Assembly (NCBI RefSeq): GCF_039880525.1
Contig: NZ_CP156989.1
Coordinates: 930,001 to 994,000 of the forward strand
Length of the DNA stretch: 64,000 nt
Reading direction: 5' to 3'
Source: Agrococcus sp. ProA11
Lineage (GTDB): Bacteria; Actinomycetota; Actinomycetes; Actinomycetales; Microbacteriaceae
Below are positions 11,055-23,982 of this stretch, one piece after another. The position numbers and the translations under genes were made by a program. The notes below the pieces were generated by a model. The model was not told the origin of the DNA. It did not search any database and worked only from the letters and a program-made list of their open reading frames with translations. Position 1 is the first letter of the stretch; each line of letters begins with the position of its first letter.

Positions 11055-11923
11055 GCGCCGAGATCGGGTGGAGCCTGATCCTGGGGGCAAGCCTCGGGTT
11101 CGGGCTGTGGCTGCTCGTCAGTCTCGTACCGGTGTTCCGGCGGCCGCTGCTGCTGCACCGCGTCGCACCCTACGTGCTCGACGTCTCCGCCGGCGCCCGC
11201 GACCTGGTCGCCCGTCGCCGAGTGAATCCGGCGCGCGTGCTCGGTGTCATGGTGTCGCCGGTCGGCGACCGCGCGGCGCCGGCGATCCACGGCATCCTCG
11301 GCGCACCCGAGAGCATCCAGCGTCGCCTGCGGCAGGCGTCGGCCGCCGAGACCCTCAGTGACTTCCGCGGGCGCCAGCTGCGATGGAGCGTCGTGGGCGG
11401 CGCGCTCGGGGCGACGCTCGGCGTTGCTGGCGCGATGCAGCAGGGCCCGGTCGTGCTGCCCGCTGCCCTCGCGGCATTGGGCGCCGCCATCGGTGCGTTC
11501 GCGATCGACTGGCTGCTGCAGCGGCGCGCGAAGCGCCGACTGGCGCGGATCTCGAGCGAGCTGCCGTCCATCCTCGAGTTCCTGTCGCTCAGCCTCGCGG
11601 CGGGCGAGGGGCTGCAGGACGCCCTGCGGCGTGTCGGCGCGGCCGGCCACAGCGCGCTCGGGCGGGAGCTCGCGGCCGTGGTCGCGGATGCCGCTGCGGG
11701 CACGAGCCTCTCGCGGGCGCTCGGGACGCTCGCCGACGAGCTGGGCCATGCCGGCGTCACGCGCAGCGTCGACCAGATGCGCGGTGCGCTGGAGCGGGGC
11801 ACGCCGTTGGCGCAGACGCTGCAGGCTCAGGCGCTCGACGCCCGGGAGGCCGCGAAGCGTGACCTGCTCGAGGCGGCGGGCCGTAAGGAGATCTCGATGC
11901 TCGTGCCCAACACAAATGGATAA
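11051..11923 (+). pseudogene. tadC: tadC, 5' part, truncated by the integrated element
   Basis: This is the first 285 complete codons of TadC, the partner of TadB in the assembly platform. Two transmembrane segments and the F-domain are present (SSELPSILEFLSLSLAAGEGLQDALRRVG ... SVDQMRGALERGTPLAQTLQAQALDAREAAKRDLLEAAGRKEISM). At codon 286 the sequence crosses into the element and ends after PNTNG. The missing C-terminal membrane helix is encoded at 23963-24041. Joining 11051-11907 to 23963-24041 gives 936 nt, an in-frame 311-residue TadC. The truncated form lacks its last membrane segment and is probably inactive. Confidence 0.92.
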
Positions 11924-11929
11924 AGGTAC
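11886..11929 (+). other. attL: left junction of the integrated element in tadC
   Basis: The left part (to 11905) is tadC coding sequence. CC at 11906-11907 is the proposed crossover dinucleotide. The arm at 11908-11929 (beginning CAACACAAATGG, ending AAAGGTAC) is the inverse of the arm at 23939-23960: 22 bp each with about 15 identical positions. Such an arm pair around a 2-bp core is the normal attP structure of large serine integrases. Confidence 0.75.
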
Positions 11930-11992
11930 TACTCGCCCTTCGGGCTGAGGGACACCCCTTGGGCCTTCCCGCGCGAGGTCTGCGGCCCCCTC

Positions 11993-11998
11993 TAGTCT
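11993..11998 (+). promoter_or_regulatory. -10 element of the methyltransferase operon
   Basis: TAGTCT ends 6 bases before ATG 12005 with no Shine-Dalgarno sequence, giving a leaderless start. The following TAGTCTGTGAGC also resembles half of the C-box found at 21207-21236, but only weakly. Confidence 0.45.
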
Positions 11999-12004
11999 GT
12001 GAGC

Positions 12005-13048
12005 ATGCCAGTCACCCCGATCCGCCCGCCGTACACGCTGCACCGGGGGAACGTGCTCCGTGCCTACAAGGACTGGGAAGCACCCGACACGATCATCAGT
12101 GATGGCGCATACGGCGTGCGCGGGTTCCACGGGGACACGACAGGCGCTGACGGGCTGGTGGACTGGTACCGCCCCCACGTGACGGCCTGGGATCGCGCGG
12201 CGAAGCCCGGATCAACGCTCTGGTTCTGGAACACCGAGGTTGGCTGGGCGACGGTGCACCCGCTGCTAGTCGAGCACGGTTGGGAGTACGTGCAGACGAT
12301 CACCTGGGACAAGGGCGTCTCGCACATCGCCGGTAACGTCAACGGTCGCACGATCCGGCGGTTCCCCGTCGTGAGCGAAGTGTCCGTGCTCTACCAGCGA
12401 CGCTTCATCATCGACACCCCCGACGGCCCTCTCGACGTGAAGCCCTGGCTCCGCTATGAGTGGCAGCGCAGCGGCCTGCCCCTCTACAAGTCGAACGAGG
12501 CGTGCGGAGTCAAGAACGCTGCGACGCGCAAGTACCTGACGGCAGACTGGCTCTGGTATTGGCCCCCCGGCGAGATGGTCGCACGCCTCGCGGCCTATGC
12601 GAACGAGCACGGTGTGGCCCACGAACGTCCGTTCTTCTCCCTCGACGGCGAGCACTCTGTGACGGCTGAGGAGTGGGACACCCTCCGCTACAAGTGGAAC
12701 CACGTCCACGGTCTGACCAACGTGTGGCAGCGGCCTGCCCTGCACGACTCCGAGCGCTTCAAGGGGACGCTGGAGCGTTCCGCGCCGCGCGTACACAACC
12801 CCTCGGTCCAGTCTGCCGCCCACCTGAACCAGAAGCCGCTGGAGTTCATGCGCCGCCAGGTGCAGGCGGTCACCGATCCGGGCGACGTGGTGTGGGAGCC
12901 GTTCGGTGGTCTCGCATCGGCGTCGGTGGCGGCTGTCGAACTCGGGCGGCGCGCTTACGTCGCCGAGTTGAATCCGACCTTCCAAGACATCGCAGCGGGC
13001 CGTCTCGTCGACGCGCAGGTGACCTACTTCGGGGCGGCATCAGCATGA
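12005..13048 (+). CDS. DNA methyltransferase (N4/N6, beta-type motif order)
   Basis: The 347-residue protein carries ISDGAYGVRGF near residues 31-41 in the position of catalytic motif IV, and VWEPFGGLASASVAAVELGRRAYVAELNP near 296-325 as the SAM-binding motif I region. Motif IV before motif I is the beta order of amino-methyltransferases. NQKPLEFMRRQV just before motif I is typical. The usual (D/N/S)PP(Y/F/W) is replaced by DGAYG, a variant. ATG 12005 is preferred over GTG 11999 because of the leaderless -10. It overlaps the nuclease gene by four bases, which suggests a restriction-modification pair. Confidence 0.75.
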   Translation: MPVTPIRPPYTLHRGNVLRAYKDWEAPDTIISDGAYGVRGFHGDTTGADGLVDWYRPHVTAWDRAAKPGSTLWFWNTEVGWATVHPLLVEHGWEYVQTITWDKGVSHIAGNVNGRTIRRFPVVSEVSVLYQRRFIIDTPDGPLDVKPWLRYEWQRSGLPLYKSNEACGVKNAATRKYLTADWLWYWPPGEMVARLAAYANEHGVAHERPFFSLDGEHSVTAEEWDTLRYKWNHVHGLTNVWQRPALHDSERFKGTLERSAPRVHNPSVQSAAHLNQKPLEFMRRQVQAVTDPGDVVWEPFGGLASASVAAVELGRRAYVAELNPTFQDIAAGRLVDAQVTYFGAASA

Positions 13049-14046
13049 GTGATGAGTTCGAGGTCGGTCCCGCTGTGCCCACCGACGAAGATGCCGCTGA
13101 AGCCATCGACCCCGGCCAGGTTGTGGACGCTGATGCCCCCGACGCGCCCAGCGAGCCAGAGCTCGATCCGGACGACCCGCGTACCGCGCTTCAGACGAGA
13201 GTGCGCGCGGCCCTCCTCGCGCTGCCTGGCGAGTTCGAGTTCGGCAACCCCATCAGCGGAGTCGCCGCTACCGACCTGTTCAACCTCAATACGTTGCTCG
13301 GGGCTGGCATCGAGGTGGAGGTCGTCCGGACGCTGAACAAGCTGCGGTCGATGTGGGACCCGGAGGAGGAGTGGCTCGGGTACCGTTTCGAGCGCTCGTC
13401 GCAAGCTTTCCCCGACGTGCGCCTCGTGCGCCGCGATCAGGGCGCGAACGACATCGCTCTAGGCATCGAACTCAAGGGCTGGTGGTTGCTCTCGAAGGAA
13501 GGGGAGCCGTCGCTACGGTTCCAGGTCACGCCCGAGGCATGCGCGCCGCATGACCTGGTTTGCGTAGTGCCCTGGCACCTGTCCGACGCCGTGGCGGGCA
13601 TCCCTCAGGTGATCGAGCCGTGGGTGAAGTCTGCACGCTACGCGGCTGAGTTCCGCGACTACCACTGGCAGCACGTCCGCAACGTGCGCGCGTCGACCAC
13701 GGACGTCGGCATTGACTACCCCGAGAGCGCTGCGCCCTACCCGACGAAGGCTGACCTGGTGGTGGCGAAGCCTCGTCAGGACGGCGGTAACAACTTCGGG
13801 CGTCTGCCCCGAGCGCACCCCTTGATGGACGAGTTCCTCGCCCGCTCGAAGGAGCACGAGGTGCTCGGCATCACGGTTGGCAGTTGGATTACCTTCCTGC
13901 GACGCCACAGCGACACCGCAACCCCCGACGAAGTGGCTGAGTACCTCCAGCGGCAGTTGAGGGCCCACACCAAGAAGATGGCCCCTCAAACGGCTGAGGA
14001 ACTCCTCGCGCTGATGGGGCGCATGAGCGACCTGCTCGCCCCGTAG
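13045..14046 (+). CDS. Putative PD-(D/E)XK restriction endonuclease
   Basis: The 333-residue protein starts with about 50 acidic, Pro/Ala-rich residues. It then has a candidate nuclease core: Pro123-Asp124 in AFPDVRLVRR and Glu142-x-Lys144 in GIELKGWWLLS, the PD-(D/E)XK pattern. LVCVVPWHLSDAV follows as a core strand. The start overlaps the methyltransferase stop (ATGA). Context and motif together suggest the cognate restriction enzyme; recognition site and type are unknown. No close family is recognised from sequence alone. Confidence 0.6.
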   Translation: MSDEFEVGPAVPTDEDAAEAIDPGQVVDADAPDAPSEPELDPDDPRTALQTRVRAALLALPGEFEFGNPISGVAATDLFNLNTLLGAGIEVEVVRTLNKLRSMWDPEEEWLGYRFERSSQAFPDVRLVRRDQGANDIALGIELKGWWLLSKEGEPSLRFQVTPEACAPHDLVCVVPWHLSDAVAGIPQVIEPWVKSARYAAEFRDYHWQHVRNVRASTTDVGIDYPESAAPYPTKADLVVAKPRQDGGNNFGRLPRAHPLMDEFLARSKEHEVLGITVGSWITFLRRHSDTATPDEVAEYLQRQLRAHTKKMAPQTAEELLALMGRMSDLLAP

Positions 14047-14068
14047 CGACGACGGTCAACAGGTGGCG

Positions 14069-14242
14069 CTAGCGCAGCCCGTCGAACGGATCCACGATCG
14101 CCTGCACGCCGTGCTCCGGGCAACTGAAAGCGATGCGCACGCCTTGACCGTCCTCAGCCACCGGCTCCGGCTCGCAGTCGCCGCCGCACGTCGTGCAGGT
14201 GCGGTAGCCCTCGTCGGGTTGGTCGGTGTCCACAGTGCCCAT
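14069..14242 (-). CDS. Small zinc-ribbon-like hypothetical protein
   Basis: The 57-residue reading frame carries CTTCGGDC and SCPEHGVQAIVDPFDGLR, that is two cysteine pairs/Cys-His groups that could bind zinc. The start is uncertain: ATG 14242, the GTG three codons further on, or a TTG at 14302 that overlaps the end of the upstream gene. It is convergent with the nuclease gene. Function unknown. Confidence 0.5.
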   Translation of the reverse strand: MGTVDTDQPDEGYRTCTTCGGDCEPEPVAEDGQGVRIAFSCPEHGVQAIVDPFDGLR

Positions 14243-14289
14243 CCTCGCAGTGCGGTCGAGCGCGCGGTCGGGCGGCAGGGCTGGAAGCG

Positions 14290-14841
14290 TCAGTCGCCCC
14301 AAAGGTCGTCCACCGCTGCGTCGTTGTCTTCCTTGCGGGCCCTCTCGACGTTGGCCGACGCAACGTTGAGCGCGGTCAATGCCTCGCTGAGCTGGGTGAA
14401 CTTGGCCTCGTCGTACAGCGCCTGGGGGATGAACGGGTCACGGTCTTCGAGGTCGTAGCCACTGGCACTGAGCACTTGGCTGAGCGCTCCAGTGCGGCGA
14501 TAGAAGCGCTTGAAGAGCGCGTTGTGGACATGCCGGTTATCGACCTTGGAGTAGGCAATGGTTGCCCAGTCGATGTCGTCGGTCGCTGCAACGAACTCTC
14601 GACCGAGTTCCTCGGCGGCGGATCCAAGTGCCGAGCGCATCTCGGTGACGCCCTCCTTGCCGAGTGCTTTGGTCACTTCAGGCTGATCGACGGCGACACG
14701 CTTCGCGGCATCAGCGGCCCTTGCAGGCAGGTCGGTCGCGATCTGTGCCAGGCAGGCTTGAATCGCGCTGTCGGCCTTAGCGCGCGCGGCGGACATGGCT
14801 TCGGTGGCTTGCTGCAGAGCGGCCTTCGTCTCGTTCGTCAT
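14290..14841 (-). CDS. Hypothetical element protein
   Basis: The 183-residue protein is helical and Ala/Glu-rich in its first half (TKAALQQATEAMSAARAKADSAIQACLAQIATDLPARAADAAKRV), with possible coiled coil. Its second half contains YSKVDNRHVHNALFKRFYRRTGALSQVLSASGYDLEDRDPFIPQALYDEA. I do not recognise the family. ATG 14841 is chosen because a -10-like TACGAT lies 7 bases upstream (14849-14854), so it appears to have its own leaderless promoter separate from the resolvase operon. Confidence 0.7.
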   Translation of the reverse strand: MTNETKAALQQATEAMSAARAKADSAIQACLAQIATDLPARAADAAKRVAVDQPEVTKALGKEGVTEMRSALGSAAEELGREFVAATDDIDWATIAYSKVDNRHVHNALFKRFYRRTGALSQVLSASGYDLEDRDPFIPQALYDEAKFTQLSEALTALNVASANVERARKEDNDAAVDDLWGD

Positions 14842-14848
14842 GATGCTG

Positions 14849-14854
14849 ATCGTA
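14849..14854 (-). promoter_or_regulatory. -10 element of the gene at 14290-14841
   Basis: On the minus strand TACGAT ends 7 bases before ATG 14841, with no Shine-Dalgarno sequence between. Confidence 0.4.
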
Positions 14855-14898
14855 GAGGCGGGGTCTGACATCGAGGCCGCGCGGCAGTCGTGGCCCGC

Positions 14899-15543
14899 TC
14901 AGACGGCGAGCAATCGCCGCTGCACCTTTGCCACGGTGTTGACCGTCCAAGGTGCGCCGGTCGCCGTGGTGAGGCCCTCGGCGTTGAGCGCGGCAGCCGT
15001 GGCGGTCAGGGTGTACGTGGCGCGCAGGGCCAGCAGGCGGTCGCCGGTGCGCTGGGGGAGCGTGGACACCCGGCCCATGTGCCTGCCTTGGCGCTTGGCC
15101 GCTTGCATGGCGGCAGACGTGCGCTCGCCTATTACCTCTCGCTCCCACTCGGCCACCGACATCATGACGTTGGCGACGAGCTTGCCGGTGGGCGTGCTGG
15201 TGTCCACGCCGAGGTCGATAGCCACGACCGACCACTTGCGCGCAGCGGCCAACTTCAGGATGCCCGAGAAGTCGTGCACGCTGCGGCTCAGGCGGTCGAG
15301 TTTGGCCACCACGATGCCGTCAACGTCGCGGCGCTTCGGGATGACGTGCAGCCGGGCGAGCGCGGCCTGCAACTGCGGGCGGTCGAGCGACTTGGCGCTG
15401 AGCCCCTCGTCCACGTACCAGGTCACCTCCCAGCCGTGCGCGTCGGCGTAGCGCTGGATGGTGTCGCGCTGAGCCTCCAGGCCGAGGCCGCTGTTGGCCT
15501 GCTCCTCCGTGGACACGCGCAGGTAGCCGATCATGGTCGTCAT
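14899..15543 (-). CDS. Serine recombinase (resolvase/invertase family)
   Basis: The 214-residue protein has the resolvase catalytic domain: IGYLRVSTEEQ with nucleophile Ser11, then DGIVVAKLDRLSRSVHDF with the conserved Arg residues, and GKLVANVMMSVAEWEREVIGERTSAAM. A C-terminal helix-turn-helix follows (LTATAAALNAEGLTTATGAPWTVNTVAKVQRRL). It is the last of five tightly overlapping genes under the LexA-box promoter. Likely roles are resolution of element multimers, inversion, or helping excision. Integration itself is better assigned to the large integrase at 22558. Confidence 0.9.
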   Translation of the reverse strand: MTTMIGYLRVSTEEQANSGLGLEAQRDTIQRYADAHGWEVTWYVDEGLSAKSLDRPQLQAALARLHVIPKRRDVDGIVVAKLDRLSRSVHDFSGILKLAAARKWSVVAIDLGVDTSTPTGKLVANVMMSVAEWEREVIGERTSAAMQAAKRQGRHMGRVSTLPQRTGDRLLALRATYTLTATAAALNAEGLTTATGAPWTVNTVAKVQRRLLAV

Positions 15544-15842
15544 CGGCTGGACCTCTTCGTCCGGTCGTACAGGTCGCCCTCGACGTGCTGAAGCTTCGCC
15601 CCAGTGCCCGGATGCGTGGCCGTGTAGACGTAGGTGCCCTCGGTGAAGTGGATGTGCCAGCCCGCGTCGTGCAGGGCGTCGGCGAGATCATCGTCCGCGC
15701 CGCCTGGGAACAACGCGTCCGCAGCGCTTGGCGGCTGGAAGCCGTCCAGGATGGCTTTGAGGGCAGCGAAGGTGTCGGGCTTCTCCTGGCGCACGCGGGC
15801 AAGCGTGACGTCGTACATGGCCCAGTAGCCGCCGAGGTTCAT
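15540..15842 (-). CDS. Hypothetical protein of the SOS-type operon
   Basis: The 100-residue product (beginning MNLGGYWAMYDVTLARVRQE) has a helical N-terminal half and a strand-rich C-terminal half (AGWHIHFTEGTYVYTATHPGTGAKLQHVEGDLYDRTKR). No known domain is recognised. The ATG overlaps the stop of the upstream gene, and its own stop overlaps the resolvase start, both as ATGA. It is therefore coupled with the resolvase. Confidence 0.7.
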   Translation of the reverse strand: MNLGGYWAMYDVTLARVRQEKPDTFAALKAILDGFQPPSAADALFPGGADDDLADALHDAGWHIHFTEGTYVYTATHPGTGAKLQHVEGDLYDRTKRSSR

Positions 15843-16048
15843 CGGCTCTGCGCCCGTGTCGCGCCGGTGGCTGTCGCGGCGAGTGTAGCCGCGAGCGCGC
15901 TGGCCTCGTGCGGGAACAGCGCGACCGTGTGGCCAGGGAGCGAGAGCATGACGACAGGGTGCCCGTCGTCCAGATACTCGGTGTCGCGCTCGACGCTGAT
16001 CGCCCCGCCCGCGAAGCGTGCGTCCACCACGGCAGCCTCGGTGCTCAC
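15839..16048 (-). CDS. Small hypothetical protein of the SOS-type operon
   Basis: The 69-residue protein starts at GTG 16048 (VSTEAAVVDARFAGGAISVERDTEYLDDGHPVVMLSLPGHTVALFPHEASALAATL). The strand pattern and the final helix suggest a small folded beta domain. It overlaps both neighbours by four bases. Function unknown. Confidence 0.65.
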   Translation of the reverse strand: MSTEAAVVDARFAGGAISVERDTEYLDDGHPVVMLSLPGHTVALFPHEASALAATLAATATGATRAQSR

Positions 16049-16233
16049 AGTTGCGCTCCGGCAGTAGTGAAGGTGGCAGCGGCGTACTCCCACTCGTCGT
16101 AGGTTGCGGTGGTGGTGCCATCGTCGTTGATCCAGCGGTCGTGCGCCTCAGCCAGATCGGTGAACTCGACCTCGGTCCAGCCGTTGTCCTCGACCAGGAA
16201 CTTGCGTACCTCGTAGATGCTCGGGGTCGCCAC
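16045..16233 (-). CDS. Small hypothetical protein of the SOS-type operon
   Basis: The 62-residue product (MATPSIYEVRKFLVEDNGWTEVEF ... NDDGTTTATYDEWEYAAATF) starts at ATG 16233, four bases after the stop of the first gene of the operon. It overlaps the following GTG start. It is acidic and aromatic-rich; no family recognised. Confidence 0.65.
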   Translation of the reverse strand: MATPSIYEVRKFLVEDNGWTEVEFTDLAEAHDRWINDDGTTTATYDEWEYAAATFTTAGAQL

Positions 16234-16236
16234 GGC

Positions 16237-16440
16237 TCAGGCGCCCATCCGCTTGAGCATGGCGCGCTCCGTGAGCGTGACGTTGGCTGCGTGCTCGAAG
16301 TAGTCATCCGACAGCGGGACTGCTGCCTCCATGCGGGTGATCGAGGAACGGTACTGCTTCAGTAGGTCCTCGGCGCTGGCCTGAGCCAGCCAGTCGATCC
16401 GGCGCTGGGCTTCGGCTTCGGCTTCGGTAATAGTGCTCAT
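16237..16440 (-). CDS. First gene of the SOS-type operon, small helical protein
   Basis: The 67-residue protein (MSTITEAEAEAQRRIDWLAQASAEDLLKQYRSSITRMEAAVP ... ERAMLKRMGA) is predicted to be almost entirely helical. ATG 16440 has AGGAGG about 6 bases upstream, and the LexA box lies 20 bases upstream. A longer reading to 16485 would cover the operator and is rejected. Function unknown. Confidence 0.7.
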   Translation of the reverse strand: MSTITEAEAEAQRRIDWLAQASAEDLLKQYRSSITRMEAAVPLSDDYFEHAANVTLTERAMLKRMGA

Positions 16441-16459
16441 GGGCTGCCTCCTCATGCAT

Positions 16460-16475
16460 TCGAACGTTTGTTCGA
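16460..16475. promoter_or_regulatory. LexA (SOS) box
   Basis: TCGAACGTTTGTTCGA matches the actinobacterial LexA consensus TCGAAC-N4-GTTCGA at every fixed position. It sits just downstream of a good -10 element on the minus strand, over the expected transcription start, so bound LexA should block the five-gene operon at 14899-16440. Confidence 0.85.
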
Positions 16476-16484
16476 ACACGAGCA

Positions 16485-16513
16485 ACTATGCCTCAAGGGT
16501 CCCCTTCTGGCAA
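16485..16513 (-). promoter_or_regulatory. Promoter of the LexA-controlled operon
   Basis: On the minus strand TTGCCA (16508-16513) and CATAGT (16485-16490) are separated by 17 bases, a good housekeeping-sigma promoter. The transcription start would fall at about 16476-16478, at the edge of the LexA box. Confidence 0.65.
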
Positions 16514-16533
16514 ACACTGTGATGAAACAGTGT
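16514..16533. promoter_or_regulatory. Perfect inverted repeat abutting the -35 element
   Basis: ACACTGT and ACAGTGT are perfect inverted 7-mers with a 6-base spacer, directly next to the -35 hexamer of the LexA-controlled promoter. TGTGATGA also occurs twice (16518-16525 and 16531-16538). This is a candidate second regulator site. Confidence 0.45.
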
Positions 16534-16674
16534 GATGATGGATCGCGGCGTGCTGGCGCGTGGTGCTGACGGTCCGGAGCGCGGGGCGGGCGTGGCCCGG
16601 TCGCAAGTCATGCTCAGGCGCGCTCAGACGTCCGAGGGCGTCCTAACGGGGCCAGCCTGCACACACGCACGCCA

Positions 16675-16701
16675 GAGGCCCCCAGCAGCGCCAGGGGCCT
16701 C
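16675..16701 (-). terminator. Hairpin terminator
   Basis: GAGGCCCC (16675-16682) and GGGGCCTC (16694-16701) form a perfect 8-bp stem with an 11-base loop. It starts 18 bases past the stop of the leftward gene at 16719. It would isolate that gene from the LexA-controlled operon. Confidence 0.55.
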
Positions 16702-16718
16702 CGACGGCGGGGCGGTGC

Positions 16719-17309
16719 TCAGGCAGCGCCGACGCTCTCCGAGAAGGGTGCCGAGTAGGTGATCTGGTTCGCCAGGTTGTAGCCGGTGTCGCGCTCCAGG
16801 CCCTCGACCACGGCCAGCGCGGCAGCGGCGTCCGCGGACTGCGGCTGCGCCAGCCGGTAGGCGTCGAGGGCGTCGACCCAGCCCGACTGACGCGCACGGT
16901 AGCCGACCGCGTGCGCCAGGCTGTCGTCACCGCTGCGGACGGCGTCACCGAGTACGGCCAGCGCCTCGGCCTCGTCGTCGATGCGCCGAGCACGGTCGGC
17001 GGCGTCACGGCGCAGCAGCACGCTGTTGGCGTCGGTGGGCTGGTGGCCGAGCAGCTCGCGCTCGACGCTGGTGCGCAGGCCGGACACGTAGGCCTCCTGC
17101 TCACCCCTGATCGCGTCGAGCTTGCCCCTGGTTTGCTTGTCCAGAGCCTCCAGGTGCTCCTGCTTGGCGAGATCGGACGTCATGACATCGTTTAGGATGC
17201 TCTGCCGCTCCGATCGGTGGGCCTCCTTGGTGACGGTTGCGCGTGCCTTGAAGCCAGCGATCGACGACTGGATGCTCTTCTCGACGCCGCTTGCGGTGTA
17301 CTTGCTCAT
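16719..17309 (-). CDS. Coiled-coil hypothetical protein
   Basis: The 196-residue protein is largely charged helix (KARATVTKEAHRSERQSILNDVMTSDLAKQEHLEALDKQTRGKLDAIRGEQEAYVSGLRTSVEREL), followed by an Ala-rich helical half. ATG 17309 has GGAAGGAA upstream. It has its own terminator. Such profiles are seen in phage scaffold-like or structural helper proteins, but that is only a resemblance in composition. Function unknown. Confidence 0.7.
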   Translation of the reverse strand: MSKYTASGVEKSIQSSIAGFKARATVTKEAHRSERQSILNDVMTSDLAKQEHLEALDKQTRGKLDAIRGEQEAYVSGLRTSVERELLGHQPTDANSVLLRRDAADRARRIDDEAEALAVLGDAVRSGDDSLAHAVGYRARQSGWVDALDAYRLAQPQSADAAAALAVVEGLERDTGYNLANQITYSAPFSESVGAA

Positions 17310-17376
17310 GGTGTGGTTCCTTCCATTGGTTGCCGGGGACCGCCCGGCGCGGTGGTTGATGGGGCTGCCCTTGGGG

Positions 17377-17676
17377 TCACTGCTTCCCTCCCAGGGAGTA
17401 GGCGTGCCCGGCCCAGAAGCCGAACGTCGGCCCGGATGCGACCGCGTAGGCATTGCACAGGTCCAGTACGGGGCAGCTCGCACAGATGGATGCGCACAGT
17501 GCGCGCTCTTCTTCGGACAGCCGGTCAGCGGTGAACAGCGCGCGACCGTCGCACGGCGGCGCGTTGTCCTCCAGTGCGGCGTTCAGGGCGGACCACGCAA
17601 CTGCGGGCGTCATGGGGGCCTTCACCGGCGGTACGAGTGACATGTCCACACAACCGGGCGAGTTTGTGGGCCTCAC
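17377..17676 (-). CDS. WhiB-like iron-sulfur regulator
   Basis: The 99-residue protein has Cys42, Cys65, Cys68 and Cys74. The last three are spaced C-x2-C-x5-C (CASCPVLDLC), matching the [4Fe-4S] ligand pattern of Wbl proteins. GFWAG follows in place of the usual G(I/V)WGG turn. Wbl proteins bind the primary sigma factor and reprogram promoters, and phages and plasmids often carry them. The GTG at 17676 overlaps the primase stop (GTGA), so it is coupled to replication gene expression. ATG 17643 is the alternative start. Confidence 0.75.
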   Translation of the reverse strand: MRPTNSPGCVDMSLVPPVKAPMTPAVAWSALNAALEDNAPPCDGRALFTADRLSEEERALCASICASCPVLDLCNAYAVASGPTFGFWAGHAYSLGGKQ

Positions 17677-19718
17677 GGGGTCCTCCCCACGCGAGGCTTC
17701 CGCTTCTGCCCGCCAGCGGCCCTAGTGGGCTTGCGCGCGCGTGGTGCCCCACCGACCGCACCGACTGCACCAACTGCACCGACTGTGGCTTCCGACATCC
17801 CTAGTCGGGTACTAGTTGGTGTGGTTGGTGTAGTTAGTTGCTCTCCCCTAAGCGGTTGCGCCGACTGTGCGCCCACTGGCAGGTCCCAGTAGGTGCGCCG
17901 GGGGTAGCCAGCCGAGGTCACGATGACGTCGAGCCGCTTGCAGGCCCGCTTGAGAGCGTCGACGCTGATTGCCACCCGCTTGGCCCGCTCCTTGACGGCG
18001 GAAGACGCCATGATTCCCTCGGAGAGCACGTCCTGTAGCCACTCGGCGGCTTCGGTTGTCGCAGACCTGTCGGTCTCGGTACCGGTGCGGCCCATCACCG
18101 AACCGATGGACTCGTGCAGGTCCTCGCCCCATACGACCCGACCTGTCCAGGCGGTGCCCTCGGCAGTGCGGACACCCGTCGAGGCAATCGTGAACGTGAG
18201 CGTCGGCAGGTCGGTGCGACCGAGGTTGTTCTTCGGGGTGCCGAACAGCTTGCGTTGCTCGGTGTCGTCGTCGGGGTCGATCACCACCGTGTGGACAGAT
18301 CGCGCGACTGCCGTGAACGCCTTGGACCCCATGACCAGCTGCAGCGGGTCGGTCGACCCGGACTTGTTGTGGTGCATGATGCCGAGCACTGCCATGCCGG
18401 TGGTGTCAGCCACGGCCACGAGCGGCTCCAGCGCGATGCGCACGTCGGAGTCCTTGTGCGTGTCCTGCTCGCCGAGCCTGCTCATGAGCGGGTCCAGCAG
18501 CAGCAGCCCGGCGTCGGTCTGTTGCGCGGCCTGCTCCAGTGCGTGGATGTCATGGGGGAGGGACAGCCCGACGTGGATGTCCTCGGCGGTGCGCACTTCA
18601 ACGCGGAACACCCTGTCGAGGTCGGCCTTGGCAGCGATGAGTCTCGGAACGATGGTGTGCTCCCAGGAGTCCTCCGTAGCGGCGATCAGCACACCACGCG
18701 GCTTGCCGAGGGACTCGCCCGGCAACTCGCCACGGGTGACCCGTGCGGCGATCCAGTAGGCGGTGGTCGACTTGCCTATACCCTCGCGGCCTGCGAGCAG
18801 TGCCAGAGTGCCGAGCGCGAGCCTGCCGTCCCACAACCACACCACCGGACGCGGCCTGATGGCCGATGCCGGCGTGAGCTGTAGCGTGCGGGCGCGCGGC
18901 CTCGCCTCGGCGCGGGTCGGCGCGATGCGCTCGGTCGGCGGCGCGTGCATCACCGCCTGCCAGTCGGCCTCCACCCGAGCGACGGCCTTAATCCACGCTT
19001 GGTCGAACGCCTCGCCAGCGTCCGGGTAATTGCGCGTGTAGCGCTCGCGGGCGACATCGTACGCCTGCCGCCGACCCTGGCCCCACACCAGCGCGTCCAC
19101 GATGGGCGTTAGTAGGGGCAGCAGCTTGGCGTTGCTGACGCCGTCGAGCGGCACGGCTTCGGCCAGCGTGCGCGCCTTGGTGTTCGGCTCCGGCGTGCGT
19201 TCCTCGGCCAGCCATGCCTCCAGAGACACCGTGGACGAGTAGCCGCGCTCCTTGCGGTGGACGATGGCCCACGCCGGGGCCGGGGCGAGGCTCGGGGCCT
19301 CGGTGAGCGCTGGCCCGTTGTAGATGACCATGCCGACGCCCGCGCGAATGTCCACGCCCGCCATGCCGTGCACGTCGGTAGCGATGGTGCAGTCCATGCC
19401 AGCCGGGGCCGCATACAGGTCGTGCCTGCCGCGCCCACTGCGGCTCGTGTAGTGCATCGTCGCTGGCAACTTGATGCCCGCCGCCTTCAGACTCGCGAAG
19501 CCGTCTCGGTCGTCCTTGCGGTCCCGGTCGACCACCAGCAGCCCGGACTTGCCACAGTGGATGCCGATGCGCTCGCCCCGGCGGAACCCCCGCTTGATGG
19601 TTGCCGGGTCGGTGGTGGCCTCGTCGCCCCAGCGGACCAGCGGCTTGCCCTCTGCGGTGCACGGGAACACATGCCAGCCGACCGCCGCGAGACTGAGTGC
19701 GATGTCGACGGCGCTCAC
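17673..19718 (-). CDS. Replication protein: primase-polymerase N-domain with RepA-like ATPase/helicase
   Basis: The 681-residue protein begins with a bifunctional primase/polymerase (Prim-Pol) domain, about residues 1-160: ALSLAAVGWHVFPC, VVDRDRKDDRDGF, YTSRSGRGRHDLY, GVDIRAGVGMVIYNGP. A RepA/RecA-like ATPase follows at about 285-540, with Walker A AGREGIGKSTTAYW, AATEDSWE and Walker B LLLLDPLMSRLGE, then GIMHHNK. A C-terminal winged-helix-like segment and a basic Thr/Val/Gly-rich tail end it. This layout primes and unwinds plasmid or phage-satellite replicons. Its start overlaps the upstream gene by four bases. Confidence 0.88.
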   Translation of the reverse strand: MSAVDIALSLAAVGWHVFPCTAEGKPLVRWGDEATTDPATIKRGFRRGERIGIHCGKSGLLVVDRDRKDDRDGFASLKAAGIKLPATMHYTSRSGRGRHDLYAAPAGMDCTIATDVHGMAGVDIRAGVGMVIYNGPALTEAPSLAPAPAWAIVHRKERGYSSTVSLEAWLAEERTPEPNTKARTLAEAVPLDGVSNAKLLPLLTPIVDALVWGQGRRQAYDVARERYTRNYPDAGEAFDQAWIKAVARVEADWQAVMHAPPTERIAPTRAEARPRARTLQLTPASAIRPRPVVWLWDGRLALGTLALLAGREGIGKSTTAYWIAARVTRGELPGESLGKPRGVLIAATEDSWEHTIVPRLIAAKADLDRVFRVEVRTAEDIHVGLSLPHDIHALEQAAQQTDAGLLLLDPLMSRLGEQDTHKDSDVRIALEPLVAVADTTGMAVLGIMHHNKSGSTDPLQLVMGSKAFTAVARSVHTVVIDPDDDTEQRKLFGTPKNNLGRTDLPTLTFTIASTGVRTAEGTAWTGRVVWGEDLHESIGSVMGRTGTETDRSATTEAAEWLQDVLSEGIMASSAVKERAKRVAISVDALKRACKRLDVIVTSAGYPRRTYWDLPVGAQSAQPLRGEQLTTPTTPTSTRLGMSEATVGAVGAVGAVGGAPRARKPTRAAGGQKRKPRVGRTP
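17752..17787. repeat. Four 9-bp tandem repeats inside the replication gene
   Basis: Four copies of a unit like CCGACTGCA lie in tandem (17752-17787) and encode the VGAVGAVGAVG tail of the replication protein. Iteron-type origins can lie inside replication genes, so this is a candidate origin; it may equally be simple low-complexity coding sequence. Confidence 0.4.
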
Positions 19719-20122
19719 TCGTCGCCCTCGTCTTCGTCATCGTCGAAGTCGCCGACCTCAACCACCAACCGCAGGCGCAGCGGCTCGTCCGCGGTGAAGA
19801 AGAACACGTCGTAGGGTAGGCGAGGCTCACCCTGACGAGCGTTCGGGACGAGGCCGCTCCACTGAGCCTCGAGTGCCCAGGACAGCCCCTCCCGATCCCA
19901 GAACCACTGGACGTCGTACGCCTCAGGTGCGGCGGAGTCGCCGTACACGCGGATGAGTCCGTACCTGTACGGACGATCGGCCCGGTGAGGGATAATGACC
20001 GCGCGCTGATATGCAGGCTCGAACCACGCAGGATCGGCACCGCGGCGCAGCACGTTCATCGCCTCGGCCTCGGACAGCCAGGTCCTGGACGGGTAATCGG
20101 CCCGCAGACGACGGCGGTTCAC
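19715..20122 (-). CDS. Hypothetical protein of the replication operon
   Basis: The 135-residue protein starts MNRRRLRADYPSRTWLSEAEAMNVLRR and ends in a very acidic tail (VGDFDDDEDEGDE). The middle is rich in Trp and Tyr (PYRYGLIRVYGDSAAPEAYDVQWFWDREGLSWALEAQW). No family is recognised. Four-base overlaps with both neighbours place it firmly in the replication operon. Confidence 0.7.
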   Translation of the reverse strand: MNRRRLRADYPSRTWLSEAEAMNVLRRGADPAWFEPAYQRAVIIPHRADRPYRYGLIRVYGDSAAPEAYDVQWFWDREGLSWALEAQWSGLVPNARQGEPRLPYDVFFFTADEPLRLRLVVEVGDFDDDEDEGDE

Positions 20123-20337
20123 TTCGAGCCCCCCGTGCGCAGCAGGCCCGACAGTCGCTTGATCTGCGACGTGGTTAGCGGCGGCGCGACGGCAAGCGCA
20201 CGCTCGATCGCATCGGCAATCTTGGCCTCGGCCAGGTTGCGGCGCGCTACCTTCTCGGCCTCGGCATCACCGATGCGTGCGTTGTAGGCAACGAGGCCCA
20301 CTGCCTGATGCGGAGTGAGTGGTTGGGATGTAGACAA
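20119..20337 (-). CDS. Small hypothetical protein, first gene of the replication operon
   Basis: The 72-residue product (MSTSQPLTPHQAVGLVAYNARIGDAEAEKVARRNLAEAKIADAIERAL ... LTTSQIKRLSGLLRTGG) is helical. The start is TTG at 20337, supported by GAGGAG about 9 bases upstream and no better start nearby. The ribosome-binding site is at the edge of a leader hairpin (20349-20394). Function unknown. Confidence 0.65.
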   Translation of the reverse strand: MSTSQPLTPHQAVGLVAYNARIGDAEAEKVARRNLAEAKIADAIERALAVAPPLTTSQIKRLSGLLRTGGSK

Positions 20338-20348
20338 CGGAAAAGCTC

Positions 20349-20394
20349 CTCAACGGAACGGCACGCGAGGTGCCGGTGTTGAACTCCCGTTGAG
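20349..20394 (-). promoter_or_regulatory. Leader hairpin before the replication operon
   Basis: CTCAACGG (20349-20356) and CCGTTGAG (20387-20394) are a perfect 8-bp inverted repeat. On the minus strand the promoter-proximal arm is followed by the second arm, which runs into the GAGGAG ribosome-binding site of the TTG-started gene. AGGAGCTT occurs beside both arms. This could tune replication gene translation. Confidence 0.4.
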
Positions 20395-20470
20395 AAGCTC
20401 CTGAGTAGACCCCCATTCACGTCAGGCGTGGCGTGAGAACCCGTGTTGTGCAGTTGTAGAGCGCGTGGCG

Positions 20471-20746
20471 TTAGCGCGGGGCTGGCATCCAGCCGCGAGC
20501 GCGTGCCGCGTCAAGTTGAGGGTACAGCGTCTCCGGCTTGAAGTACCCCTTGTACGGACAGCGATCGCAGTCGAGAGTGTGTCTGATGGAGACTTCCCCG
20601 CTCGGCTCCCACAGGATCGGGTCCGAGTCGCCCTCATTGTGGACGCGTGCCCAGCCGTCGCCGTCATCGCGGAACAGCGCCAGGGTGAGGGGGTCGTGGC
20701 TGGTGTGCCCGACGCCTTCGCAGAATACCTTGACGACTGATTCCAT
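20471..20746 (-). CDS. Small hypothetical protein with Cys pair
   Basis: The 91-residue product begins MESVVKVFCEGVGHTSHDPLTLALFRDD, contains LDCDRCPYKGYF and ends ARARGWMPAPR. The cysteines could bind zinc. ATG 20746 is supported by a -35/-10 promoter whose -10 ends 7 bases upstream, a leaderless start. Upstream in-frame codons lie before the promoter and are not used. Function unknown. Confidence 0.65.
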   Translation of the reverse strand: MESVVKVFCEGVGHTSHDPLTLALFRDDGDGWARVHNEGDSDPILWEPSGEVSIRHTLDCDRCPYKGYFKPETLYPQLDAARARGWMPAPR

Positions 20747-20753
20747 GTGCACT

Positions 20754-20782
20754 ATTATGCCGCAACCCGCCCTTTTGGCTAA
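20754..20782 (-). promoter_or_regulatory. Promoter of the gene at 20471-20746
   Basis: On the minus strand TTAGCC (20777-20782) and CATAAT (20754-20759) are 17 bases apart, and the -10 ends 7 bases before the ATG. Confidence 0.5.
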
Positions 20783-20964
20783 TTCTCGCGGCCCCTCGGC
20801 GCGTCGCCTACCGGGGCTAGGAGCGGCGCTTGCGCGCCTGACAGCGTTCGCCGGGGCCGTTGGTGTGTGGGGTAAGTGGTTGGGGTAGGCCGGTAGCCGC
20901 CAAGGCACCAGCGGATCGCTGAGAGCTGCTGGTGGGGACCGCGCGTGCGGGCCGCAGGGTGTGG

Positions 20965-21186
20965 CTAGGCGCGCTCCGAGAGGAGATCGGCAGCTGGCAC
21001 GTCGAGCGTCTCGGCGAGGCGGTAGATGATGTCGAGCGTTGGGTTCCTCCGGCCGCGCTCGATGCCGGAGACGTAGGTGCGGTCGAGGTTCGCACGGTGG
21101 GCGAAGTCCTCTTGTGACCAGCCGTGCTGGTTTCTGAGCTCCCGCACGCGCGTGCCGAAAGCGGCGCGGTGAGATGGAGCAGGCAC
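20965..21186 (-). CDS. Restriction-controller-type (C protein) HTH regulator
   Basis: The 73-residue protein is a single XRE helix-turn-helix domain: FGTRVRELRNQHGWSQEDFAHRANLDRTYVSGIERGRRNPTLDIIYRLAETLDVPAADLL. Its size and the LDRTYVSGIERGRRNPT recognition segment are typical of C proteins, which time expression of restriction-modification genes. The tandem C-box at 21207-21236 lies 21 bases upstream of its GTG start and supports autoregulation. The restriction-modification genes of this element are 7 kb away, which is unusual. A Cro/CI-like element repressor is the alternative. Confidence 0.8.
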   Translation of the reverse strand: MPAPSHRAAFGTRVRELRNQHGWSQEDFAHRANLDRTYVSGIERGRRNPTLDIIYRLAETLDVPAADLLSERA

Positions 21187-21206
21187 CCGCCAACCGTTTC
21201 GCTAAG

Positions 21207-21236
21207 GTGACAATGAGTCCACGGACTATGAGTCAC
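21207..21236. promoter_or_regulatory. Tandem C-box operator
   Basis: Two direct 11-bp sites, GACAATGAGTC (21209-21219) and GACTATGAGTC (21224-21234), are separated by CACG. The second is a perfect GACT-N3-AGTC palindrome, and together they form a larger palindrome flanked by GTGAC/GTCAC. Read on the minus strand this is the classic AGTC-CGTG-GACT arrangement of controller-protein operators (AhdI, Esp1396I, PvuII type). It lies between the controller gene and the divergent gene at 21257. Confidence 0.8.
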
Positions 21237-21256
21237 ATTTCAGAGGAGCGCCACGC

Positions 21257-21757
21257 ATGCCCACCCGATCCCCTCAGCCTTCAGATGTACCGAAGAGGCC
21301 TTGGTCCCTGAGGTGGTGGGTCTGGCTTGTCGCGGCGCTTGTGGTCGTCGGCGGTGTCAGTGCGGTTGTCAATCCGCCGGACGACAGCACTCCTTCGCAG
21401 CCGGCCCAGCCGACGCAGTCGGGTCCGGTTGAGCCAACCGTGTCCGAGCCTGCGGCCGAGACTGCCCCACTCGACTTGGAGGCCTTCCTGAGCGAGTCAG
21501 GCGTCGTCTTCGACAGTGCGCGATTCTCCGGCAGGAAGGCCACGATCTATGTGCCGACCGAAACGACCAATGAGCAGGCGCAGCGGATCGCCGCGGACGC
21601 AATGCTCTACATCTGCGATCATGCGAACCAAGCGGGCGATGGAGCGCCTGCGGCAAACCGCGTCGAAGTATCTGACGACGTCAACCGTTACTCGCCGGGA
21701 TATGACGCGGCCGACCATCCGTCAGGATTTGCTACTGCAGACATTTGCGAGGGCTAG
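21257..21757 (+). CDS. Single-pass membrane protein, unknown
   Basis: The 166-residue protein has a cytoplasmic Pro/Arg-rich start and one membrane helix (WWVWLVAALVVVGGVSAVV, about residues 20-39). A Pro/Thr/Glu-rich stalk follows, then a C-terminal outside domain with two cysteines (YICDHANQ and the final DICEG). ATG 21257 has GAGGAG upstream and sits directly downstream of the C-box, so the controller may regulate it. Function unknown. Confidence 0.75.
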   Translation: MPTRSPQPSDVPKRPWSLRWWVWLVAALVVVGGVSAVVNPPDDSTPSQPAQPTQSGPVEPTVSEPAAETAPLDLEAFLSESGVVFDSARFSGRKATIYVPTETTNEQAQRIAADAMLYICDHANQAGDGAPAANRVEVSDDVNRYSPGYDAADHPSGFATADICEG

Positions 21758-21813
21758 GCGCGCGGCGCGGCTGGTAGCGAGCCGTGTCGGTGCGCGCCAC
21801 TAGATTGCTCAGC

Positions 21814-22542
21814 ATGACTGAGATGCTGGCAGCGCTACTGGGTGCGCTCGTTGGTGGCCTCCTTTCCGCTTGGGTGGGCTCGCGGCAAACCGCCAAGGTC
21901 TTGAAGCACGAGACGGATCTGGCTGCGACGGAGCGAAGAGAAGCGCAACGCGTCGATGAAGAGCAGCGGCGAACGTATGCAGCCGATCAGCTGATCGCAG
22001 CGCTCGCCAATTTCACGACAATCGAAAGAGGCGATGAGGACTTAGGCTCTTTCGTTCGAGTCATGGCGACACCTGACGTTCATCGAGAAAGGAACGATCG
22101 TGCCGCAGCGCTGTTGCAAGCGGGGTCCAGCCATGCGCACGCTCTACCGGCGGAGCTGCGCGAACGATGGGAGGCCCTGGTATGGATGGTTCGCTTTAAC
22201 CAGTCCAAACAGCCTGAGCGTTCGGATTCATTGCGGTGGCGCGACGTAAGTGACCTGCGGAACTACATCGAGTACGTTCGGCGGTCCCTGTACTCGGTCA
22301 GTGGGGATCACCCCGTGCCCCCAAGTTTTCCCGCGCCGGATGTGCGCCGTGAAGACCGCCGTATCTGGGGATTCAAGCCCGAGGACGGGGCCAACGAGCC
22401 CGACCTCACTGATTGGCAGCTCAGGGATCGGCTCGTAGGCAAGGTGCGCTTCTCGTCCGGGGAGGTCCGTTGGCACGGGCCGAACGGTCTCGTCGTGAAC
22501 CTGCCGAACGAGGAGATTGACTCGGGGCCACCCGCGACGTAG
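21814..22542 (+). CDS. Membrane-anchored coiled-coil protein, unknown
   Basis: The 242-residue protein has an N-terminal hydrophobic helix (MLAALLGALVGGLLSAWVGS) and a charged coiled coil (KHETDLAATERREAQRVDEEQRRTYAADQLIAAL). A helical domain and a C-terminal strand-rich part follow. ATG 21814 is chosen over GTG 21784 because a -10-like TAGATT (21801-21806) ends 7 bases upstream, giving a leaderless start. Similar one-helix/coiled-coil layouts occur in accessory proteins of defence islands, but no family is recognised. Confidence 0.7.
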   Translation: MTEMLAALLGALVGGLLSAWVGSRQTAKVLKHETDLAATERREAQRVDEEQRRTYAADQLIAALANFTTIERGDEDLGSFVRVMATPDVHRERNDRAAALLQAGSSHAHALPAELRERWEALVWMVRFNQSKQPERSDSLRWRDVSDLRNYIEYVRRSLYSVSGDHPVPPSFPAPDVRREDRRIWGFKPEDGANEPDLTDWQLRDRLVGKVRFSSGEVRWHGPNGLVVNLPNEEIDSGPPAT

Positions 22543-22557
22543 GTCGCTCCGTACCGC

Positions 22558-23934
22558 TCAGCCCTTCCACTCGATCCGCACCAGGTCTGGATCGAAGGAC
22601 CTGCCCGACCCTGACGGCATGATGGTCACCGTCACCAGCGTCGCAAGGACGGCGCGCTTGCTGTCCATGCTGAGTGCGGCCCATGTGGCGGGGGCAGTGC
22701 TGCCCATCAGCTCAGCAGGCACGGCAGCGGGCAGCGAAGCTTCCAAGTCGGCAGCAGCCTGAGTGCGGTCCACTCGCAATCGCTCGGTGATACGAGCCAA
22801 CTGCGCAGCGTCGATGTCGCCAGTGGCAAACAGGTCGGCAGCGTTGGCCAGCCTGGCGTCGATGGCCTCGATGGAGTCCCGCGCCGCTTGCAGGGCAGCC
22901 GGGTCGCCCTGGGTGAACAACTGCGCTGCATCTGGCATCTGCAGTCTGCCCACCACGACGCCCTCCACCAGTGCGTCCACCAGGTCTTGCTTGCGACGCA
23001 CGCCGTAGCATTCAAGGCACGAGTAACTCGGCGGCTGACGCTTCTTGCCGGTCTTGGTGGTCGTCAGCCTGCCGGGCGCGCGCTTCATCTTCGCGCCGCA
23101 CTTCCCGCAGCGCGCGATCCCCGCCAGCAGGTGCTTCGGTGCTCGACCAACGTGCTGGCGCTTGCGGCTGGGGTCGTTCAGCAGGGCGACGATCCTGTCG
23201 TGCTCGTCGCGGCTGATGATCGGCTGCCAGTTGCCCTCTCCGATGACTTGGCCACGGTAGCGACGAAGACCGGCAAGCGACTCCCGCAGGATCATCTGTC
23301 GCAGCGTGGTGCCGTTCCACAGGCCCGCGCCAGCCGTGCGCCTGGGCGGCTCAACCCCGCGACGGTTCAGGTCAGTGGCGATGCTGCGCAGCGACTCGCC
23401 ATCGAGCAACCGGGCTGCGATCTCGCGCACGGTCTTAGCCTCGTCTGCAACGACCTCCAGCCCGTCCGTTCCGCGACGGTAGCCGTACCCCACCGACCCG
23501 GAGGGTTCGCCCTTGGCTGCGCGCTGCCGGTTGGCTGCCCGCTGTCGTGTGGCCTTCTGTTCGCCCTCGTACTGGCTCCACGCGGCCACGGTGCGCGCAA
23601 CGGCTCGGCCCGCTGGCGTGGTCAGGTCGAGAGTGCCTGCCGTCACGGTGTACACGGGCACGTTCAGTGCGATGACGCGCTCCAGGTCACGGGTCAGGCG
23701 CAGCAGCCGGTCCTGATGCCAGGCGACGATGGCCGTGGGCTGAGCGTCGAGCATGGCCTCGAAGCCGGGGCGCGCCTTGCCGCTGGTGGCGCTGATGTCG
23801 TTGTCGGTGTAGACCTTCGTCACCGTCAGCCCGAGGCGCTCAGCCAGCTCGCGACACTCCTGCTCCTGCCGCTCGACTCCAGCGCCTTCGCCGGTGCGGT
23901 CGAGGCTGATGCGGGTGTAGATGACGCAATCCAT
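22558..23934 (-). CDS. int: Large serine recombinase, element integrase
   Basis: The 458-residue protein has a resolvase-type catalytic domain (MDCVIYTRISLDRTGEGAG with Ser10, WHQDRLLRLTRDLERV, TPAGRAVARTVAAWSQYEGEQKATRQ) and a recombinase domain (GSVGYGYRRGTDGLEV ... TTLRQMILRESLAGLRRYRG). A zinc beta-ribbon (CGKCGAKMKR ... SCLECYG) and a coiled-coil C-terminal region follow. This is the integrase architecture of phiC31/Bxb1-like elements. The start codon lies 4 bases from the attP arm. No separate recombination directionality factor is identifiable. Confidence 0.93.
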   Translation of the reverse strand: MDCVIYTRISLDRTGEGAGVERQEQECRELAERLGLTVTKVYTDNDISATSGKARPGFEAMLDAQPTAIVAWHQDRLLRLTRDLERVIALNVPVYTVTAGTLDLTTPAGRAVARTVAAWSQYEGEQKATRQRAANRQRAAKGEPSGSVGYGYRRGTDGLEVVADEAKTVREIAARLLDGESLRSIATDLNRRGVEPPRRTAGAGLWNGTTLRQMILRESLAGLRRYRGQVIGEGNWQPIISRDEHDRIVALLNDPSRKRQHVGRAPKHLLAGIARCGKCGAKMKRAPGRLTTTKTGKKRQPPSYSCLECYGVRRKQDLVDALVEGVVVGRLQMPDAAQLFTQGDPAALQAARDSIEAIDARLANAADLFATGDIDAAQLARITERLRVDRTQAAADLEASLPAAVPAELMGSTAPATWAALSMDSKRAVLATLVTVTIMPSGSGRSFDPDLVRIEWKG

Positions 23935-23938
23935 GAAG

Positions 23939-23982
23939 GTACCTTAACGCCATGTTGTTGCCACTGGTGTTCGGCCTGCTGC
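23939..23982 (+). other. attR with integrase -10 embedded
   Basis: The arm at 23939-23960 (beginning GTACCTTAACGCC, ending GTTGTTG) and CC at 23961-23962 adjoin tadC sequence from 23963. On the minus strand TAAGGT (23941-23946) lies 6 bases before the integrase ATG. The integrase promoter therefore overlaps its own attachment site, and its -35 region lies in whichever DNA is joined beyond the core. Confidence 0.7.

Follow-up and report, generated by a model that had tools for sequence, protein, structure and literature searches.

A controller (C) protein encoded on an integrative element of Agrococcus sp. ProA11 is, on balance, probably a complete C switch that operates without a restriction enzyme and has been redeployed to envelope genes. 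According to this reading, which is built on sequence comparison, C would repress a divergent membrane protein gene, here called memb, and the restriction-modification (R-M) pair that travels on the same element would be separate cargo. The known role of C proteins is to time type II restriction, and C genes outside R-M loci are known as well; the C family, its operators, and leaderless starts are likewise established. The window, meaning the whole stretch of DNA that was analyzed, is 64,000 nucleotides long.

The element spans approximately 11908 to 23954 (~12 kb, as judged from the tadC frames) and splits tadC, a pilus assembly gene, whose left reading frame stops at 11920 and whose last 28 codons resume at 23955. 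It contains the R-M pair, a resolvase, a prim-pol gene, C, memb, and a large serine integrase (22558-23934, minus strand; Pfam Resolvase, 5.7e-22, and Recombinase, 2.4e-14). Flanking tadC sequence was found on both sides of the related locus L150, to the left of L153, and weakly (E 0.026) beside the IMG/VR contig L114. The relatives in L150 and L153 thus sit in tadC, and that in L114 probably does too.

The C protein, its operator, and its promoter

The C-protein gene (20965-21186, minus strand) is an open reading frame (ORF) of 73 aa with a GTG start. Its product matches the PADLOC Control_protein model (9.5e-18) and, among PDB sequences, C.AhdI (7.6e-13), C.BclI (1.4e-11), and the Esp1396I controller (4.5e-10), which are also its closest solved structures. 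These matches bear out the 73-residue C-protein-like regulator described in the initial annotation. The major base-binding residues of C.Esp1396I are R35, T36, and R46 in an excerpt of PMC4041747, and their equivalents (R, T, R) are kept in the window protein according to our own alignment mapping, with a numbering offset of 3. Features of C proteins of the AhdI/Esp1396I type, with the GACT motif, are present, namely, a short single-domain helix-turn-helix (HTH) protein, the base-contacting residues, and a tandem C-box upstream of its own gene. Relatives at E 1e-14 occurred in 11 of the 398 sampled family genomes, and 13 of 366 Microbacterium genomes held one at E 1e-14 or better. An OL-like site lies within the 130 upstream bases in 70 of 80 relatives, these being the best 80 of 129 confirmed.

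On the strand of the C gene, operator OL (GACTCATAGTC; 21224-21234, minus strand), which is preceded by TG (TGTGAC), is followed by a CGTG spacer (21220-21223, minus strand) and by operator OR (GACTCATTGTC; 21209-21219, minus strand), so that the full C-box at 21209-21234 reads GACTCATAGTC-CGTG-GACTCATTGTC. On the plus strand the order is GACAATGAGTC (21209-21219), CACG (21220-21223), and GACTATGAGTC (21224-21234). Two 11-bp operators with a CACG spacer had been noted earlier as a tandem C-box, and this observation is confirmed both by the sequence and by a weight-matrix score of 40.2 bits (possible maximum, 44.2), obtained with a matrix of 52 distinct boxes upstream of C relatives that is not fully independent of the window site, as relative L006 in the matrix has an identical box. 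The score is far above chance, since 100 dinucleotide shuffles of the window gave a top score of 16.5 bits and a mean maximum of 9.8 bits. With up to 3 mismatches allowed, a pattern derived from the site matched once in the window and never in 100 shuffles, and a looser pattern had a single match in the 2.67-Mb genome, revealing no second C-box there; within the window's element the matrix scan gave no other significant C-box. A C-box-like match before the gene at 20746 was dropped, as its 7.7 bits fell below the mean maximum of the shuffles. An 18-nt core of the C-box, with 1 mismatch allowed, occurred five times in the 398 sampled family genomes, and all five occurrences adjoin C genes that were detected independently by protein search. 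The window, L006, and L114 share 39 identical nt around the C-box, and in all seven close elements OL, the spacer, and the outer ATGT are invariant, with OR altered in L151.

The gap between the C-box and the GTG start of C is 22 nt in the window. Among 59 distinct leaders, which were chosen for a clear OL and come from Actinobacteria, Proteobacteria, and other groups, with L148-L160 kept out of the tally, 51 have an in-frame start 23-25 nt downstream of OR; redundant loci were excluded from the leader, promoter-hexamer, and half-site counts. Because this start-codon spacing is as in the relatives, the C transcript is probably leaderless or nearly so. A putative -35 element of the C promoter, TGGACT (21216-21221, minus strand), overlaps OR and was assigned from spacing and the -35 consensus. 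The putative -10 element, AACGGT (21193-21198, minus strand), corresponds to a recurrent NAnnnT hexamer at OR+11 to OR+16. Its A at OR+12 and T at OR+16 are each found in 23 of 29 actinobacterial loci, and the two occur together in 30 of the 59 distinct leaders, at a position that shifts with the start codon. TTAGCG, which is kept in the close elements, was dropped as a -10 candidate because NAnnnT, ~6 nt downstream, recurs across phyla. As published, the -35 of Esp1396I overlaps OR (PMC3758141), and leaderless mRNA is common for such C operons (PMC4824078).

The membrane gene memb and the C-memb pair

Divergent from C lies memb (21257-21757, plus strand), which was delineated by its ORF, by alignment, and by a structure model. 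It encodes 166 aa, laid out as a hydrophobic helix near residues 21-31, a proline-rich linker, and an alpha/beta domain at about residues 70-166; the helix agrees with the earlier description of the divergent neighbor as a membrane protein. A Shine-Dalgarno-like GAGGAG is present at 21243-21248 (plus strand). OL stands 22 nt from the start codon of memb in the window, and the divergent start is 21-26 nt from OL in six of seven elements, L150 being ambiguous at 13 or 22 nt. Downstream of memb by 26 nt, an ORF of 252 aa (21784-22542, plus strand), whose start codon is uncertain and whose product has a hydrophobic stretch at its N terminus, is a possible operon partner, and its 73% homologue in L148 stands apart from memb.

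Searches with memb gave no match in Pfam, matches below the cutoff only in NCBIfam, nothing at E 1 among PDB sequences, and a weak PHROG membrane-protein match for the first 53 residues; it had no match in the phage records or viral contigs searched. A structure model from two sequences was discarded (pLDDT 51.6), and one from five sequences is confident in about residues 70-166 and has a low-confidence linker. Its fold matches were weak (PDB best E, 0.31; viral best E, 0.019; VIA best Z, 6.6 over 72 residues), and as they are within the range of common small folds, we claim no function for memb. Compared with three of its four homologues (L152 left out), memb has dN values of 0.28-0.30 and dS values of 1.25-1.38, and dN/dS is near 0.2 against the window and 0.23-0.31 among the three homologues. 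A ratio near 0.2 indicates that memb is under purifying selection and that the protein is maintained.

The pairing of C with a membrane gene, which the initial annotation had proposed to look for elsewhere, recurs in four Microbacterium elements. The five closest Microbacterium C relatives (80-86% identical) are those of G398, G517, G438, G481, and G661, and in four of them (L148, L151, L152, and L153) a memb homologue of 42-62% identity is divergent from C. In the fifth, G438 (L150), an 85-aa hydrophobic protein is divergent from C in place of memb. Full-length memb was found in 4 of 13 C-bearing and in 0 of 20 other Microbacterium genomes searched, with two weak matches to its hydrophobic part set aside. 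Among the 398 sampled family genomes it was found in the window's genome alone; five family genomes gave weak matches to part of memb, the best at E 2.7e-8 and one of them covering residues 24-141. All five full-length memb genes in the genomes searched adjoin C. Locus L149 had no match and was not used. In the five Microbacterium elements C lies beyond the resolvase, at the opposite end of the element from its position on the integrase side in the window (the tadC-left flank itself was observed for L150 and L153 only). Since the pair occupies two element positions, C seems to have traveled together with the C-box and memb.

Additional operators were found away from C in two of the seven close elements, the window not being one of them. 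In L153 (9303-9313) and L150 (10405-10415), a scan with the half-site (TG plus OL) revealed second operators scoring at or near the maximum, placed 20 and 19 nt, respectively, ahead of the start codons of lipoprotein genes, which were called by their lipobox. Together with the recurrent pair, these operators support the suggestion that C was recruited to serve other genes of the element. In L157 (M. stercoris, on the same contig as L008), a second full C-box (L157:6836-6918) about 3 kb from C lies 54 nt before an ABC-type ATPase gene, which was assigned by its Walker A and signature motifs, not by HMM. In an alphaproteobacterial MAG, a full C-box (L080:17105) lies 7 kb from C and 70 nt from a divergent lipoprotein gene whose product opens with the lipobox signal (M)RSLLLVLCSVLLTAC, and the frames displayed contain no C gene beside this second box. 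In enterobacterial loci a second operator faces a gene that we take to be Ner-like, and in Serratia it faces a gene with a signal peptide.

Half-site matches of at least 19 bits numbered 117, C's own boxes included, versus a mean of 0.4 after two-base-block shuffles. The script left 39 of the 117 unassigned to a C gene; at least 6 of these are still C-type, as L031, L039, L041, and L054 precede a second C-like gene and L026 and L151 represent C's own box, and L015, L045, and L046 were placed in neither class. In Xenorhabdus loci among L014-L040, as well as in L031, L039, L041, and L054, a DNA-binding protein of Ner-like type is encoded divergently, facing a second C operator. L039 was the only one of these loci in which the motif scan for methyltransferases gave a hit, and the arrangement looks like a chromosomal solitary C switch.

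An alternative is that the C gene and its box are the remnant of a lost R-M system and regulate C alone. Sorokin in 2009 reportedly described leaderless C genes on mobile elements and explained C proteins beside mobile-element genes as possible vestiges, and the sister element L153 carries a different methyltransferase ~2.1 kb from C (PADLOC, 1.8e-108). The latter arrangement implies that C and a methyltransferase can be neighbors through shared cargo space. We regard a remnant as unlikely, given that a homologous divergent gene is kept in five elements at two positions, that memb is under purifying selection, and that separate operators stand before lipoprotein genes in two elements.

Other partners of C and the R-M pair

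It is also important to consider what lies divergent from C more generally. We compared 24 loci (the window, L148, L150-L160, L114, L102-L110, and L026), comprising 23 from Microbacteriaceae and L114. A clear envelope partner, as judged by hydropathy, lipobox, or Pfam, was present at 10 of the 24. Four had HTH_17-type divergent proteins: those of L103 and L156 were above the Pfam cutoff, that of L155 was below it, and that of L154, with no Pfam match, was counted for its resemblance by eye to L155. The remaining loci had uracil-DNA-glycosylase-like partners (three loci, L026 being the one examined with Pfam), a PH/SHOCT protein (L160), a weak, below-cutoff DUF2510 protein (L114, where the C-box is as in the window), or nothing clear (five loci: L102, L104, L108, L110, and L159). 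Envelope genes are a frequent, not the sole, partner of C. Membrane proteins accounted for 13 of 33 families of divergent genes versus 21 of 171 control families (p 5e-4, 1.7 hydropathy threshold), but the control includes spurious ORFs that lowered its rate, and at an assumed true rate near 25%, which is an estimate, the excess would be marginal, so we use this enrichment as a hint only. The hydropathy rule mis-called some loci, such as L044, where a spurious ORF was picked.

Other gene neighborhoods were seen farther afield. On a Tsukamurella plasmid (L122:6001-12204), a C-like gene adjoins nucleotidyltransferase, ThiF, Mov34, and SAVED genes, presumably a CBASS-type defense operon. In Shewanella and Veronia (L037, L048, L049, L055, and L056), a gene of ~650 aa lies directly 3' of C on the same strand.

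Excisionases often carry an HTH_17 domain, and C may time excision at L103 and L156, as well as at L155, where the match is weak, and L154, where it was made by eye. C could be regarded as the mode switch of the element, comparable to an immunity repressor, that times excision or replication and has memb as a passenger. Such a role would suit the location of C in the window and L114, between the integrase and a small-gene block (gene g20119 in both), and the HTH_17 divergent genes of L103 and L156 (L155 being below the cutoff). The small-gene block next to C leads on to prim-pol in the window, and no prim-pol homologue was matched in L114. Against this role, C is on the other side, beyond the resolvase, in five elements, and the window's element has no further significant C-box; we consider it improbable.

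The R-M cargo consists of a DNA methyltransferase gene (11999-13048, plus strand; Pfam N6_N4_Mtase, 3e-16) and a probable restriction endonuclease gene (13045-14046, plus strand; PADLOC REase_II, 4.1e-6), the latter having a G395 homologue that lies beside a methyltransferase homologue. The two genes overlap, and the methyltransferase has an unusual DGAY sequence that we take to be its motif IV. The pair is ~7 kb from C, the distance given in the initial annotation, and on the opposite strand, so C does not stand beside a restriction gene. In the cargo end of L153 (6202-8617), another methyltransferase accompanies a Hypoth_Ymh protein.

The initial annotation had also raised the possibility that C acts in trans on this R-M operon, through a sequence at 11993-12004 that was thought to resemble half a C-box. 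C and the R-M pair do share one element, but we now find this action very hard to credit. In a sequence scan of the R-M promoter (11970-12020), no C site was found; the best half-site had -4.1 bits, and 829 window positions, this one among them, score as high or higher; the best full box scored -7.0 bits. TAGTCT before the R-M pair is presumably an ordinary actinobacterial -10 (TANNNT) with a leaderless start. Besides the absence of a site nearby or elsewhere in the genome, homologues of the R-M pair occur apart from C: both genes are present in G395 (79% and 44% identical) and the nuclease in G216, and the 19.9 kb read at each locus contain no C gene. Conversely, L148-L160 have no homologue of either R-M gene at E 1e-3, the L148 contig ending 1.3 kb beyond memb. 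For this subfamily, the assumption that C proteins are usually neighbors of R-M genes is weak: a motif scan found a methyltransferase-like ORF within about 6 kb of C at 19 of 97 loci. This count is a lower bound, because the window's own methyltransferase escaped the scan, and the loci are partly redundant (many of them Xenorhabdus).

Proposed regulation and known systems

We therefore return to the reading of a complete C switch redeployed to envelope genes. As expected from the family, a C dimer would bind OL and then, cooperatively, OR. With OL placed ahead of the C promoter and OR overlapped by its putative -35, occupancy of OL would lead to autoactivation and the filling of OR to autorepression, again as the family suggests, and the mRNA from which C is made would have no leader or almost none. 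RNA polymerase serving memb would have to start inside the C-box or cross it. Because only 22 nt, which include the Shine-Dalgarno sequence, separate OL from the memb start, a promoter hardly fits, and this spacing suggests that C should repress memb. C.Esp1396I represses at its methylase operator, and in some R-M systems a divergent methylase gene occupies the position that memb holds here. By analogy with methylase genes, memb would probably be made early upon entry of the element and then be shut down by C as it accumulates; the R-M pair would be separate cargo with its own start.

Alternatively, C could activate memb instead of repressing it, as C proteins are activators at low concentrations and become repressors at high ones, according to an excerpt of PMC4824078. 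The OL-to-start distances (21-26 nt in six of seven elements, 13 or 22 nt in L150) leave little room for a promoter, and activation seems to us quite unlikely.

If this reading of the pair, and of the separate operators before lipoprotein and transporter genes in relatives, is correct, a mobile element can time cell-surface changes after its entry, and solitary C proteins gain concrete candidate targets. A more tentative extension, which we consider possible though doubtful, would see restriction timing as only one use of C proteins. They would then form a wide class of stand-alone delay switches, found on mobile elements and chromosomes in several phyla, that control envelope-gene regulons of their own, including membrane proteins, lipoproteins, and transporters.

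The arrangement may be compared with several known systems. As in the C proteins outside R-M that Sorokin reportedly described in 2009, the C gene is on a mobile element and probably leaderless; unlike the possible vestiges of that account, it has a kept partner gene and extra operators in related elements, which point to dedicated targets. The window C resembles C.AhdI, C.BclI, and C.Esp1396I in sequence, as a small single-domain HTH protein, and in its GAC/GTC tandem operators, which have a short spacer and a TG on the outside (as described for operators in an excerpt of PMC3758141), whereas it adjoins a membrane gene and not a restriction or methyltransferase gene. The same excerpt describes O_M of Esp1396I as a C operator that regulates the methyltransferase gene (PMC3758141). 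In L150 and L153, the lone operators of the lipoprotein genes likewise stand before a second gene, but the target is an envelope gene, and the operator beside memb is OL of the C-box itself.

In the literature searched, as far as the portions of it at hand extend, we recognized no paper on C proteins dedicated to envelope genes. Prophage TF-smORF modules, in the available part of PMC10432266, have an R-M-controller-like factor outside R-M, and it similarly acts on a non-R-M gene; their target, however, is a small ORF of the lysis pathway, and no GACT C-box was seen in that part of the paper. HsdC of Mollicutes (PMC5282649) and C.Csp231I (PMC11014345), in excerpts of both reports, have extra or off-target sites outside their own R-M operons and thus also exemplify C proteins that bind elsewhere. 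Unlike the switch proposed here, theirs are described in those excerpts as additions to an R-M role or as cross-talk in a foreign host (PMC5282649, PMC11014345).
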